Assembly (NCBI RefSeq): GCF_016613475.2
Contig: NZ_CP071517.1
Span: 1,550,001-1,614,000 of the forward strand
Reading direction: 5' to 3'
From: Lysobacter arenosi
GTDB taxonomy: Bacteria > Pseudomonadota > Gammaproteobacteria > Xanthomonadales > Xanthomonadaceae
Length of the DNA stretch: 64,000 bases
This document shows, piece by piece, positions 21,853 through 27,431 of the stretch. How positions within the stretch are numbered: the stretch's first letter is position 1; every line of letters starts with the position of its first letter. Both the position numbers and the translations under genes were made by a program. The notes beneath the pieces are model-generated. The model worked only from the letters and a program-made list of their open reading frames with translations, ran no database searches and was not told the origin of the DNA.

Positions 21853-23553
21853 TCACCCCTGCCCCAGCGCGGCCTGGTGCACCCCCGCGACCGCACGGCC
21901 GGACGGATCGGCCATGGTCGCGAAGGCCGCGTCCCAGGCGATCGCCGCCGGTGACGAGCAGGCGATCGACTTGCCGCCGGGCACCGTCTCGGCGCAGGCG
22001 GCACTGGGGAAGAACTGCTCGAAGATGTGCCGGTACAGGTAGGCCTCCTTCGTCTGCGGCGGGTTGACCGGGAAACGGCTGGCGGCCGCGGCGAACACCC
22101 GATCGCTGACCTGCGCCTGGGCGTGCGCCTTGAGTCCGTCGATCCAGCCATAACCGACGCCGTCGCTGAACTGCTCCTTCTGCCGCCACAGGATCGATTC
22201 GGGCAGGTAGCCGTCGAAGGCTTCGCGCAGGATCGATTTCTCGATGCGTCGCGTACCGTCCGGCCCGGGCCCGGCCATCTTGTACTGCGCGTCCATGCGC
22301 ATCGCCACGTCGAGGAACTCGACATCGAGGAACGGCACGCGCGGCTCCACGCCCCAGGCCATCATCGACTTGTTCGCGCGCAGGCAGTCGTAGTTGTACA
22401 GCGCATCGATCTTGCGCACGGTTTCTTCATGGAACTCGCGGGCGTTGGGCGCCTTGTGGAAGTACAGGTAGCCGCCGAAGATCTCGTCGCTGCCCTCGCC
22501 CGACAGCACCATCTTCACCCCCATCGCCTTGATCCGACGCGCCAGCAGGAACATCGGCGTGGAGGCACGAATGGTGGTGACGTCGTAGGTCTCGATGTGG
22601 CGGATCACCTCCGGCAATGCATCCAGGCCCTCCTCGAACGTGTAGGTGAAACCGTGGTGCACGGTACCCAGCGCCTGCGCTGCGATTTCGGCCGCGGCCA
22701 GGTCGGGCGAACCGTCCAGCCCGATCGCGAACGAATGCAGGCGCGGCCACCAGGCCTCGCTGGCATCGTTGTCCTCGATGCGCTTGCGCGCATAGCGCGC
22801 CGCCACCGCGGCGACCAGTGACGAGTCCAGTCCGCCCGACAGCAGCACGCCGTACGGCACGTCGCTCATCATCTGCCGGTGCACGGCGCGCTCGAAGGCC
22901 TCGCGCAGTTCCTGCCTGGCCACTTCCACGCCCTGCGTTGCGTCGTAGTCGCGCCAGGGTTTGACGTAGTAGCGCACCAGTTCACCGCTGGCACTGTCGT
23001 AGTAGTGCCCCGGCGGGAACTGCGCGACATCTGCGCAGACATCGGCCAGCGCTTTCATCTCCGAGGCCACGCACAGGCGTCCGTCGTGATCGTGCCCCCA
23101 GTACAGCGGGCAGACACCGATCGGGTCGCGCGCAATCAGGTAGCGCTTGTTGCCTGCATCCCACAACGCGAACGCGAAGATGCCATTGAGTTCGTTGAGC
23201 CAGGCGGCGACGTCGTCACGCTCGCGGTAGAGCGCGCTGATCACTTCGCAGTCCGAGCCGGTCTGGAACGCATAGGGTTCGCGCAGCCGCTGCTCGAGCT
23301 CGCGGTGGTTGTAGATCTCGCCGTTGACGGCCAGCGCCAGTTCGCCGTCTTCCGAGTGCAGCGGCTGCGAGCCGCCGGCCGGATCGACGATGGCCAGGCG
23401 CTCGTGGACGAGGATCACGCCGTCGTCCAGATGCACGCCGCTCCAGTCAGGGCCGCGGTGGCGCTGGCGTTGCGAAAGCTCGAGGGCGCGCCGGCGCAGC
23501 GCTTGTACGTCATCGCCGGGTTGCAGGCCGAATATGCCGAGGATGGAACACAT
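21853..23553 (-). CDS. asnB: Asparagine synthase B (glutamine-hydrolysing)
   Basis: The 566-residue enzyme makes Asn from Asp, ATP and Gln. Cys2 (MCSILGIFG) is the N-terminal nucleophile of the glutaminase domain, with RHRGPDWSG and NGEIYNH. The synthetase domain has the PP-loop LLSGGLDSSLVA (about 235) and SGEGSDEIFGGYLYF (about 345). Length agrees with E. coli AsnB (554). The gene lies behind an Asn-codon-rich leader peptide and an intrinsic terminator (23617-23791), so expression probably responds to charged Asn-tRNA by attenuation. AGGAG lies ahead of the ATG. Confidence 0.96.
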   Translation of the reverse strand: MCSILGIFGLQPGDDVQALRRRALELSQRQRHRGPDWSGVHLDDGVILVHERLAIVDPAGGSQPLHSEDGELALAVNGEIYNHRELEQRLREPYAFQTGSDCEVISALYRERDDVAAWLNELNGIFAFALWDAGNKRYLIARDPIGVCPLYWGHDHDGRLCVASEMKALADVCADVAQFPPGHYYDSASGELVRYYVKPWRDYDATQGVEVARQELREAFERAVHRQMMSDVPYGVLLSGGLDSSLVAAVAARYARKRIEDNDASEAWWPRLHSFAIGLDGSPDLAAAEIAAQALGTVHHGFTYTFEEGLDALPEVIRHIETYDVTTIRASTPMFLLARRIKAMGVKMVLSGEGSDEIFGGYLYFHKAPNAREFHEETVRKIDALYNYDCLRANKSMMAWGVEPRVPFLDVEFLDVAMRMDAQYKMAGPGPDGTRRIEKSILREAFDGYLPESILWRQKEQFSDGVGYGWIDGLKAHAQAQVSDRVFAAAASRFPVNPPQTKEAYLYRHIFEQFFPSAACAETVPGGKSIACSSPAAIAWDAAFATMADPSGRAVAGVHQAALGQG

Positions 23554-23608
23554 GGGAGGACTCCTGGGTGGGCTTGTTTCGTGGAAGGAGGAGGAAGTGG
23601 AGAAGGCA

Positions 23609-23643
23609 GAAACGAAGAAGCCCGCGCTTTTGGCGCGGGCTTC
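23609..23643 (-). terminator. Attenuator terminator in the asnB leader
   Basis: On the minus strand GAAGCCCGCGC-CAAAA-GCGCGGGCTTC is an 11-bp stem followed by TTCGTTTC. It lies between the Asn-rich leader peptide stop (23672) and the asnB ATG (23553). Its 5' arm contains GCCCGCG (23640-23634), the exact complement of CGCGGGC (23688-23682) inside the leader-peptide coding region, giving a 7-bp alternative antiterminator. Confidence 0.85.
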
Positions 23644-23671
23644 GTGAGCGAGTTAGCGTGTCTTGCGCGCG

Positions 23672-23791
23672 CTAATCGCCGGCCCGCGGGTGGCTGGCGT
23701 TATTGCGGTTGTTATTGTTCAGGCCGGCCACGGGCGCACCGCCGCGAAGGGCGGCGTTGGTGGCGTGGGCGAGGGCCTGGACGGAAGACAT
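23672..23791 (-). CDS. asnB leader peptide with Asn run (attenuation)
   Basis: A 39-codon ORF starts ATGTCTTCC with AGGA seven bases upstream and ends TAG just before the attenuator hairpin. Near its end it reads GLNNNNRNNASHP: six Asn codons (AAC AAT AAC AAC, CGC, AAT AAC) in seven. The first bulk of the peptide is ordinary. If Asn-tRNA is short, a ribosome stalled at these codons leaves CGCGGGC (23688-23682) free to pair with the 5' arm of the terminator. If translation reaches the stop, the ribosome covers it and the terminator forms. Asn as the sensed amino acid and asnB as the downstream gene agree. Confidence 0.85.
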   Translation of the reverse strand: MSSVQALAHATNAALRGGAPVAGLNNNNRNNASHPRAGD

Positions 23792-23903
23792 GGGCCGATC
23801 CTGCGACAGCCGGCGGCCAGTTGCAAGCCCCCTCCCCCGGACAGGGCCAGGCCTGCTCCGATGCCTGCCAATGCGCGACACTAGGGCGGGGAATCAATCC
23901 ACG

Positions 23904-26255
23904 ATGGGGACCATGAAGAAACTGATCAAACGCAGCCTCGTCGTGCTGCTGCTGTTGCTGGTGGCAGGCGCTTTCGCGATCTGGTGGCTGATGCGCGGCA
24001 GCCTGCCGAGCCTGGAGGGCGAACTCGCCCTGCCCGGCCTGTCGGCACCGGTTTCGATCCAGCGCGACGCGCTCGGCGTGGTCACCGTCGATGCCGCCAA
24101 CGAAGCCGATGCGATGCGTGCACTGGGCTACGTCCACGCGCAGGAACGCTACTTCGAGATGGACCTGCTGCGCCGCGCGTCGTCCGGCGAACTGTCGGCC
24201 CTGTTCGGCCCGGCCGCGATCGACACCGACAAGCAGCGCCGCGTGCACCGCATGCGCGCACGCGTGAGCGCTCACCTTGATGCGATCCTCGGCGACAAGC
24301 GACCGATGGCGCAGGCCTACGTCGATGGCGTCAATGCCGGCTTGGCCGCATTGAAGGTGCGCCCCTGGCCTTACCTGCTGCTGCGCACGCAGCCCGAGCC
24401 GTGGCGCCTGGAAGACTCGGCACTGGCCGGCTATGCCATGTACTTCGACCTGCAGGACGCCAGCAACGCCCGCGAACTGGCGATGTGGAAGCTCAAGCCG
24501 CATGTGCCGGGGGCGCTGTATGCGCTGCTCGCCCACGACGGCAGCAGCTGGGACGCGCCGCTGGCCGGCCGGCCGCGCGGTGACGCGGCCCTGCCCGATG
24601 CCGCCACGCTCGACCTGCGTGCGCTGCCGATGCCCTCGCCCGCCGACCGCCCGGCCAACGTGCCCGAGCGTTCGGACGTGGGCAGCAACAACTTCGCCGT
24701 CTCCGGCCAGCTCACCGCCGACGGTCGCGCCATCGTCGCCGACGACATGCACCTGGGCCTGCGCGCACCGAACATCTGGTTCCGCGCACGCCTTCGCTAT
24801 CCCGACACGCGCGCCGTCGGCGGACACGTCGACGCCACCGGCTTCACCCTGCCCGGCCTGCCGGCACTGGTGGTCGGCAGCAACGGCCAGGTCGCCTGGG
24901 GCTTCACCAACAGCTACGGCGACTGGCTCGACTGGCAGCGCCAGCCGGCCTGCGCCGAGCCCTGTGCGGGTGTGACCCGGCACGTGGAACGCATCCGCGT
25001 CGCCGGCCAGGCCGATGTCGAATTCCCGGTCGATGAGTCTGCCTGGGGGCCGATCCTGTTCCGCCAGCCCGATGGCAGCGGCCTGGCGCTGCGCTGGGTC
25101 GCCCACCAGCCCGGCGCGATGAACCTGGGTCTGGCCAACTTCCTGCACGCGCACTCGCTCGACGATGCCCTGCAGATGGCCGACCACACCGCGATCCCCG
25201 GGCAGAACCTCGCCATCGGCGGGCGCGACGGCCGCATCACCTGGCGCCTGCTCGGCCCGGCGCCCGTGCGCCAGGCCAGCTGCGCTGCGACCACCGTCAG
25301 CGAGGCGGCATCGTGCCCGCCGTGGCCGATCACCCCTGCCTCGGGCATCGCCCTGCCGCCTGGCACGGTGCAGCGCATGTGGAGCGCCAACACGCGCGTC
25401 GTCGATGGCGCGCTGCTTGCGCGCATCGGCGACGGTGGCTACGCCAATGGCGCGCGCGCCCGCCAGATCCGCGACGACCTGTTCGCCAAGGAGCGATTCA
25501 ACGAACGCGACCTGCTCGCCATCCAGCTCGACGATCGCGCTTTGTTCCTGACCCGCTGGTGGCAGCTCCTGCGCGACCAGGGCGCGTCGGACAAGTCACC
25601 GGCGCTGCACGAACTCGCCGTGGCATCGCCGACCTGGCAGGGACACGCCAGCACCAACTCGGTCAGCTACCGCGTCGTGCGCGCCTGGCGCCTGGCCGTG
25701 CACGACCGCCTGCTCGATGGCCTGACCGCACCGGCGCAGGCAGCCCTGGGCAAGGACTTCGAGATGCCCAATCTCTCGCACTTCGAAGGCGTGGCCTGGC
25801 CGCTGGTGACGCAACGCCCGGCGAACCTGCTGCCGCGTCGTTTTGCCTCGTGGGATGCGTTGTTCGAGGACGCCGCGCGTGAAGTGCGCGACGAGTTGCA
25901 GGAGAAGGGACCGATCGCTCAGCGCAGCTGGGGCGAGCGCAACACTGCGAAGATCTGCCACCCGCTCAGCCGCGCCCTGCCCGCCTTCGCCAAGCCGATG
26001 CTTTGCATGGCCGCCGATGAGCTGCCCGGCGACAGCGGCATGCCGCGCGTGCAGGGACCGAACTTCGGCGCGTCCGAACGCATGGTGGTGTCACCGGGCC
26101 ACGAAGCCGACGGCATCATCCATATGCCGGGCGGCCAGAGCGGCCACCTGATGTCGCCGTTCTGGGGCGCCGGTCATGACGACTGGGTGCATGGCCGGCC
26201 TACGCCGTTCCTGCCGGGCAAGACGCAGCACACGCTCAAGCTGGCGCCGCAGTAA
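23904..26255 (+). CDS. Penicillin acylase family N-terminal nucleophile hydrolase
   Basis: The 783-residue protein has an N-terminal membrane/signal segment (RSLVVLLLLLVAGAFAIWWL), an alpha-chain region with ALGYVHAQERYFEMDLLRR, and the autoprocessing site VGSNNFAVSG with nucleophile Ser261. The beta chain follows with DDMHLGLRAPNIWF, GSNQ-like VVGSNGQVAWGFTNSYGD and the C-terminal GGQSGHLMSPFWGAGHDDW. Family members hydrolyse amide bonds of beta-lactams or acyl-homoserine lactones; the substrate here is unknown. The start is uncertain: ATG at 23904 or at 23913 (MKKLIKRS). It is divergent from asnB. Confidence 0.9.
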   Translation: MGTMKKLIKRSLVVLLLLLVAGAFAIWWLMRGSLPSLEGELALPGLSAPVSIQRDALGVVTVDAANEADAMRALGYVHAQERYFEMDLLRRASSGELSALFGPAAIDTDKQRRVHRMRARVSAHLDAILGDKRPMAQAYVDGVNAGLAALKVRPWPYLLLRTQPEPWRLEDSALAGYAMYFDLQDASNARELAMWKLKPHVPGALYALLAHDGSSWDAPLAGRPRGDAALPDAATLDLRALPMPSPADRPANVPERSDVGSNNFAVSGQLTADGRAIVADDMHLGLRAPNIWFRARLRYPDTRAVGGHVDATGFTLPGLPALVVGSNGQVAWGFTNSYGDWLDWQRQPACAEPCAGVTRHVERIRVAGQADVEFPVDESAWGPILFRQPDGSGLALRWVAHQPGAMNLGLANFLHAHSLDDALQMADHTAIPGQNLAIGGRDGRITWRLLGPAPVRQASCAATTVSEAASCPPWPITPASGIALPPGTVQRMWSANTRVVDGALLARIGDGGYANGARARQIRDDLFAKERFNERDLLAIQLDDRALFLTRWWQLLRDQGASDKSPALHELAVASPTWQGHASTNSVSYRVVRAWRLAVHDRLLDGLTAPAQAALGKDFEMPNLSHFEGVAWPLVTQRPANLLPRRFASWDALFEDAAREVRDELQEKGPIAQRSWGERNTAKICHPLSRALPAFAKPMLCMAADELPGDSGMPRVQGPNFGASERMVVSPGHEADGIIHMPGGQSGHLMSPFWGAGHDDWVHGRPTPFLPGKTQHTLKLAPQ

Positions 26256-26300: not shown

Positions 26301-27431
26301 TCAGCGCAGCAGCATCCGCTCGATCAGTGCCTGGTACAGATCCGGCAGCGCCTCGAGATCCGCCACCGACACATGCTCGTCGACCTTGTGGATGCTGGCG
26401 TTCACCGGGCCGATCTCGATGCACTGCGCGCCCAGCGGCGCGATGAAGCGCGCATCCGAAGTACCGCCGCCCGTGCTTTCCTCCGGTGCGGCACCGCAGT
26501 ACTGGCCCAGCACTGCGCGCGCAGCCGCACGCAGCGGGCCTTCCGGCGTGTAGAACGGCTCGCCGCCGCGATGCCAGCGCACGCTGTACTCGAGCCCGTG
26601 CCGCTGCAGCACCGCTTCGCATTCCTGCTCCAGCTGCGCCGCGCTCCAGCTCGGGTTGAAGCGCAGGTTGAACAGCACCTCGAGTTCGCCGGGAATGACG
26701 TTGTTGGCGCCGGTGCCGGCGTGGATGTTGCTGATCTGCAGGCTGGTCGGCGGGAATGTCTCGTAGCCCTCGTCCCAGCGACGCGCCGCAAGTTCGGCGA
26801 GCGCGGGCATGGCCAAGTGGATCGGGTTGCGCGCCTTGTCCGGATACGCGACATGGCCCTGCACGCCGCGCACCGTCAGCGTCGCCGACAAGGTGCCGCG
26901 ACGGCCGACACGCAGCAGATCGCCCAGCTTCGTCATCGAAGACGGCTCGCCGGTGATGCACCAGTCCAGGCGTTCGCCGCGCTCGCGGAACGTCTCGGCA
27001 ACGCGGCGCACGCCGTCGATGGCATCGCCCTCCTCGTCGGAGGTCAGCAGCAGCGCGACCCTGCCGGGATGGTCGGGATGGGCAGCGACGAAGCGCTCGA
27101 GCGCGACGACAAACGCAGCAACGCTGCCCTTCATGTCCGCCGCGCCGCGCCCGTACAGCACGCCGTCGCGGATCTCGGGAAAGAACGGATCGCTGGCCCA
27201 TGCTTCGCGCGGCCCCGGCGGAACCACGTCGGTATGGCCGAGCAGCACCAGGGTCGGACCCTCGCTGCCATGCACCGCCCACAGGTTGTCGACATCGCCG
27301 AAGTGCATGTGCTCGCAACGGAATCCCGCCGCGAGCAGGCGCTGGCCGATCATCGCCTGGCAGTCACCGTCTTGCGGCGTGACCGAAGCGCGTGCGATCA
27401 GGTCGCAAGTGAGGTCGAGGACGTCGCTCAT
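26301..27431 (-). CDS. dapE: Succinyl-diaminopimelate desuccinylase
   Basis: The 376-residue di-zinc M20 peptidase-family enzyme cleaves N-succinyl-LL-diaminopimelate, giving LL-DAP for lysine and peptidoglycan. Metal and catalytic motifs are [11 protein letters not shown] (His, Asp), [10 protein letters not shown] (Asp), [10 protein letters not shown] (catalytic Glu pair) and [14 protein letters not shown] (His). GGGTSDARF is also conserved. Length matches E. coli DapE (375). It ends the minus-strand run map-glnD-dapD-arsC-like-dapE, five bases after the ArsC-like gene. Confidence 0.97.

Follow-up and report, generated by a model that had tools for sequence, protein, structure and literature searches.

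A short Asn-rich open reading frame and an intrinsic terminator precede asnB on the minus strand of the 64,000-nucleotide stretch of Lysobacter arenosi DNA that was analysed here and is called the window (Table 1). The asnB product was identified as asparagine synthase B (NF006949, 870 bits against a cut-off of 499). Direct reading bore out the 39-codon leader ORF of the preliminary description, in which six codons out of a stretch of seven encode Asn, and its stop codon; its translation is MSSVQALAHATNAALRGGAPVAGLNNNNRNNASHPRAGD, and the Asn residues are located at codons 25-28 and 30-31 (23719-23699), with one extra at codon 12. The pattern of four AAY codons, any codon and two further AAY codons has a single occurrence in the 3.95-Mb genome, which is this leader. 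The 11-bp terminator that had been described ahead of asnB was recovered as well: its stem (23643-23617) has 11 pairs, nine of which are G-C, and a loop of 5, and is followed by a T-rich tail. CGCGGGC at 23688-23682 is, as had been claimed, the exact complement of GCCCGCG in the 5' arm of the terminator (23640-23634).

Table 1. Features of the asnB leader locus (positions in the window)
Feature	Position	Strand	Basis or remark
-35-like hexamer TTGCAA	23821..23826	-	conserved TTGC/TTGA position
-10-like hexamer CAGGAT	23798..23803	-	contains AGGA (23802-23799); conserved geometry; CAGGAT itself in 9 loci
Leader AUG, its A the predicted transcription start (leaderless)	23791	-	suggested by promoter geometry
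Leader ORF	23672..23791	-	39 codons and TAG; ATG 23791, TAG 23674-23672; read directly
Asn control codons N-N-N-N-R-N-N (codons 25-31)	23699..23719	-	read directly
Antiterminator strand CGCGGGC, within the last leader codons	23682..23688	-	folds and clade comparison
Predicted antiterminator hairpin, inner part	23643..23681	-	fold; 23681-23670 with 23658-23643, spanning the leader stop codon
Terminator 5' arm	23633..23643	-	fold; antiterminator partner GCCCGCG at 23640-23634
Terminator 3' arm	23617..23627	-	terminator search
T-rich tail TTCGTTTCT	23608..23616	-	read directly and terminator search
asnB Shine-Dalgarno AGGAG	23561..23565	-	read directly; strong pairing ahead of asnB in 41/42 loci
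asnB, asparagine synthase B, 566 aa	21853..23553	-	ATG 23553; profile match

On the plus strand, a long ORF (23703-26255) that is penicillin-acylase-like by eye diverges from the leader and stands between asnB and a dapE-like ORF (26301-27431). The dapE-like end lies directly ahead of the leader in two of the related loci, L003 and L004. Elsewhere in the window, a Guanidine-II riboswitch was found at 119-165 on the minus strand (47.5 bits, cut-off 32), with its candidate target gene past the window edge.

The comparison with relatives was based on the best 80 of 591 asnB loci, 44 of which had at least 70% identity in the best segment. Within this sample, a leader ORF rich in Asn, with a hairpin behind it, was present upstream of asnB in 41 of the 44 loci. 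The conservation of the Asn run and hairpin among Xanthomonadales relatives, which the preliminary description had put forward as a check, was thus found when tested. A strict T-tail filter detected the hairpin in 34 of the 41 relatives and a looser search in all 41; the T tails of L014 and L019 are poor. The three loci with no Asn-rich leader (L011, L021 and L040) bear the titles of other phyla or classes. Adding the window to the 41 relatives gives 42 leaders, which are 24-44 codons long and contain 3-9 Asn each. Across these leaders, Asn makes up 18.1% of the residues encoded in the reading frame, compared with 0.07% and 0.27% for the two alternative frames. Apart from the Asn block and the antiterminator codons, the peptide is strongly divergent in both sequence and length (24-44 residues), and two of the seven pairs of the terminator consensus are changed on both sides. 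Among the 36 loci below 70% identity, a MAG titled Rubrivirga (L064, 63% identity) combines an Asn-rich ORF with a strong terminator; the element, at 1291-1500 ahead of asnB, also folds in a fitting way, with a 10-pair antiterminator. Doubts attach to the start codon and promoter of this locus and to the binning, and a second origin or a misbinned contig is possible. Five others of these 36 loci (L060, L063, L074, L075 and L077) passed the loose Asn filter and by eye are not leaders with terminators. In two Rhodanobacter loci (L022 and L024), repeated palindromic units of the CGGCCAT-CATGGCCG type occupy a long 5' region between the terminator and asnB.

The Asn block is kept in frame with synonymous change between AAC and AAU, and the two codons are used differently in the leaders and in asnB. 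AAU accounts for 125 of 271 Asn codons in the leaders, whereas the asnB genes downstream of them use it for 56 of 351 (Fisher p 2e-16), and the excess has the same direction in 39 of the 42 loci. The other two-fold C/T codons, for which the counts are small, showed no comparable shift in the leaders. In the available part of one article, the choice of a synonymous regulatory codon is argued to affect sensitivity (PMC1183508). Another reading, alternative to codon tuning, is that the preference for AAU reflects an avoidance of G+C pairing.

The leader was folded with a ribosome footprint that was assumed to cover 12 nt starting with the A-site codon. In the window, a leader that is not being translated adopts a fold that includes the terminator. 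The antiterminator strand is left free by a ribosome located anywhere on codons 25-31 and is covered from codon 32 in the A site. When the polymerase has just completed the 5' arm and the ribosome is at codon 25, the antiterminator is the best fold, with -28.2 kcal/mol vs -15.1 kcal/mol without it. Once complete, the terminator exceeds the antiterminator in stability (-44.3 vs -33.2 kcal/mol), and therefore the switch must act during transcription. Nascent-RNA folds were also computed for the 42 loci: with the ribosome placed on the Asn codon that opens the densest block, at least 6 pairs between the leader and the arm formed in 41 of them, and the mean gain was 27.4 kcal/mol compared with 18.7 in shuffles. 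At most 3 of 60 shuffles were as good in 31 of the 42 loci and more in the remaining 11, to which the window belongs, with 4 of 60 in the first-Asn folds and 0 of 40 in the last-Asn folds. With the ribosome at the last Asn, at least 5 pairs were retained in 37 of the 42 loci (mean gain 18.3 vs 10.4 in shuffles), while five loci had fewer than 5 and two of these, L014 and L019, none.

The leader strand matches the arm by clade, with GATGCGGG, CGCGGGC and GGCGGGCC types recognised by eye, and the covariation that had been proposed was accordingly observed, as the leader strand and the terminator arm change together between clades. The pairing of each leader with its own arm was better than in 5000 of 5000 permutations, which ignore relatedness, with a mean of -16.1 vs -14.4 kcal/mol; this gain is small because the arms share GCCCGC across clades, and 18 of 41 foreign arms pair better with the window leader strand than its own arm does. 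The locus thus combines an Asn-codon leader ORF before asnB, an intrinsic terminator between the two and, from folding, an antiterminator that is mutually exclusive with it, which are the hallmarks of an attenuator.

Upstream of the leader, the window has TTGCAA, 17 nt, CAGGAT, 6 nt and the leader ATG at 23791. TTGC or TTGA starts 35-37 nt upstream of the leader start codon in 41 of the 42 loci (offset -37 in 4, -36 in 21 and -35 in 16), where 0.24 is expected per position. The spacer to the -10-like hexamer is 17 nt in 31 loci and 18 nt in 10, and the distance from the end of this hexamer to the start codon is 6 nt in 23 loci, 7 in 17 and 8 in one. The hexamer itself varies, being CAGGAT in 9 loci, TAGGGT in 5, TACGGT in 4 and TCTAGT in 4. 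The exception to the geometry is L046, with TTTACG-17-TATGTT and a gap of 7. These counts depend partly on the choice of start codons because the leader starts were picked by a promoter score that permitted gaps of 4-10 and spacers of 15-19, and those of L010 and L026 were set by hand. The -35/-10 geometry would place +1 on or beside the leader AUG; judging from the sequences, the AUG is probably the transcription start and the leader would be leaderless, and hence translated without a Shine-Dalgarno sequence. Since a generic sigma-70 consensus scan of 23500-23950 returned zero promoters, this claim rests on the conserved position.

Considering the above, we propose that an Asn-specific ribosome-mediated transcription attenuator on a leaderless transcript very probably precedes asnB, as the comparative tests support the Asn-specific interpretation given in the preliminary description. 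Transcription would begin at the AUG of the leader ORF, as the promoter geometry suggests. When Asn-tRNA is scarce, the ribosome would stall in the Asn block at codons 25-31, and the strand 23688-23682 would be free to pair with the nascent 5' arm of the terminator, so that the polymerase could continue into asnB. With plentiful Asn-tRNA, the ribosome would reach the stop codon and cover the same strand, the terminator would fold and transcription would end. In terms of anatomy, the attenuator is strongly supported by the computed parts, their conservation, the complementary strands and the predicted folds; its behaviour is a prediction, in which the start site, ribosome stalling, the relative timing of ribosome and polymerase and the response to Asn are inferred.

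The same attenuator could also be carried by a transcript that starts further upstream, with the leader translated from AGGA as a Shine-Dalgarno sequence, which is how the preliminary description read this motif. AGGA lies 7 nt upstream of the leader ATG, and pairing with the anti-Shine-Dalgarno sequence of -4 kcal/mol or lower was found ahead of 23 of the 42 leaders compared with 122 of 420 random places, although asnB starts reach this value in 41 of 42, far more often than the leaders do. Moreover, AGGA lies within CAGGAT, 17 nt past TTGCAA, and the fixed distances of TTGC/TTGA and the -10-like hexamer in 41 of the 42 loci, while the hexamer varies, are to be expected for a promoter rather than a ribosome-binding site. 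The Shine-Dalgarno reading was therefore set aside despite the excess over random places; AGGA is probably better read as a promoter part, and we consider the upstream start unlikely.

The remaining explanations question the response to Asn itself or its target. A trans-acting role of the leader peptide or of the short terminated RNA, like that of rnTrpL and peTrpL of S. meliloti and with the control of asnB being secondary, is very unlikely: relatives of the peptide are found in the source databases as hypothetical proteins, and trpL of S. meliloti is leaderless, its attenuated RNA and peptide being trans-acting according to the part of the report available (PMC7298713), but the asnB leader peptide varies strongly except in the Asn block and antiterminator codons, which speaks against such a role. 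That a merely Asn-rich peptide is followed by a constitutive premature terminator or a processing site, with no response to Asn, appears the most improbable. Plain terminators of a similar shape are common, as was seen in the own genome, where 12 of the 29 model matches at E<=0.05 were fetched: apart from this leader, the 11 others are terminators of this plain kind, had no run of Asn or another amino acid by eye and were rejected as further leader copies. Nevertheless, the Asn block stays in frame through synonymous change, the leader codons fit the local terminator arm, and asnB is downstream in every leader-bearing locus (all fetched via asnB), in addition to the model matches in three families.

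Ribosome-mediated attenuators control the trp, his, leu, thr, ilv and phe operons. The asnB leader resembles these classical attenuators in having an ORF in which codons for the end-product amino acid are abundant, an alternative between an antiterminator and an intrinsic terminator, and a biosynthetic gene downstream, and it differs from them in sensing Asn and in its probably leaderless start. In the Rfam scan at the element (23500-23950), nothing exceeded the cut-offs, with Leu_leader at 29.7 of 50 bits and Thr_leader at 23.7 of 55. T-box RNAs on the asparagine genes of Firmicutes bind tRNA directly and have no leader peptide; they share with the asnB leader the response to tRNA charging and the amino acid, whereas direct tRNA binding sets them apart. 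No T-box match was found in the window at the gathering score or in 23500-23950 at E<=5. The trp and his operons are treated as ribosome-mediated attenuators in the accessible part of PMC1183508. In the available text on S. meliloti trpL, the transcript begins at the leader ATG and has an intrinsic terminator (PMC7298713); both features are shared with the asnB leader, although the start was measured there and is predicted here, and trpL differs in its amino acid (Trp), its target trpE(G) and its alphaproteobacterial host. Similarly, the leaderless polycysteine ORFs of mycobacteria, as far as the accessible text describes them, attenuate the translation of downstream genes (PMC9031893). They have in common with the asnB leader a short leaderless ORF, successive codons for the amino acid being sensed and downstream attenuation, but they sense cysteine and act on downstream translation, while transcription termination is predicted for the asnB leader. 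We found no description of an asparagine leader for asnB in the open PMC literature, a scope outside which key older papers lie, and the word 'asparagine' occurs zero times in the main text, as far as it was available, of PMC2965389, PMC4833913, PMC1262725 and PMC1183508. The element is thus a known kind of switch, for whose Asn specificity no description was found and whose start is probably leaderless.

If this reading is true, asparagine joins the amino acids that are sensed by ribosome-mediated attenuation, and the control of asparagine synthesis without a dedicated repressor would be explained in a large group of bacteria, many of which are plant-associated. It would also be a probably leaderless gammaproteobacterial attenuator, which would make it testable how fast ribosomes load on leaderless RNA in comparison with the polymerase.

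A covariance model that was built from the 42 leaders matched 365 of 398 genomes of the order at E<=0.01, and beyond three families the best listed E values were all above 1e-6. By hand count, 115 of the 129 listed genomes of the own family and 105 of the 123 listed genomes of family f12 had matches at E<=1e-8; all three listed genomes of family f2 had matches of 2e-10 to 6e-10, and their loci (L095-L097) bear leaders. Thirteen genomes with no match are absent from the listing and hence were not assigned to families. All 14 weaker genomes of the own family were opened: nine gave no AsnB match at E<=1e-60, L100, L102 and L103 represent three with a leaderless AsnB locus of 63-64% identity in which no leader ORF is present, and L098, despite its weak match, has a normal leader. 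In L094, asnB is 78% identical to that of the window, contains an in-frame TGA and has no leader upstream; it is perhaps a decaying gene. Six of the 18 weaker f12 genomes were opened, four of which lack AsnB, while two have an AsnB of 64-65% identity with no leader. In this survey, loci were read over 330 nt upstream, and none of the ten AsnB genes of the order with 62-70% identity (L099-L108) had a leader within this distance. As the leader accompanies close asnB genes and is absent from these ten, the element goes with the orthologous asnB; by these sequence comparisons, it is found in three families of the order and tracks this gene. In a search of 369 genomes of the class, nine had a match, four from the own family and five from outside the order at about 1e-7. 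The latter five were rejected as copies since none has a similar Asn run or AsnB nearby; diverged copies could be missed in this search because stricter filters were used.

The own genome encodes AsnRS (636.9 bits), and a search of it for GatB gave no match; therefore free Asn should set the charging of Asn-tRNA. A second asn_synth-type gene (G000:C1:1306754-1308460) fell short of the cut-off of the XrtA amidotransferase model (480.7 vs 816.9 bits) and scored 467.3 bits with TIGR01536. It was rejected as leader-bearing, as it lies directly behind another gene and has no leader. The plasmid records searched gave no match.

An ilvC locus, L127 (the same place as L114), prompted a survey of ilvC in which 17 loci were fetched from 24 genomes of the family. 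Three of them (L127, L128 and L130) have an Ile/Leu/Val-rich leader with a promoter at the same distance from the start codon as in the asnB leaders, which suggests leaderless attenuators on other operons. L131 and L138 have an ILV-rich ORF upstream of ilvC without that promoter distance, and no leader was detected under the filter used in 12 of the 17 loci, including that of the own genome (L137); the ilvC start is probably misplaced in L141 and L143. A general leaderless rule for ilvC was rejected. A broader reading, which we regard as speculative and rather unlikely, would be a class across Xanthomonadales in which amino-acid leader ORFs start at the transcription start (asnB widely, ilvC in three of the genomes examined), so that a 70S ribosome could load as the RNA emerges; tuning with the rarer AAU codon might then also read the modification of tRNA-Asn, and the terminated RNA might be trans-acting.

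The nine own-family genomes without AsnB at E<=1e-60 (G116, G170, G225, G233, G274, G278, G335, G379 and G381) have AsnRS and lack GatB. With AsnB as the sole asparagine synthetase searched, these strains may need asparagine from outside.
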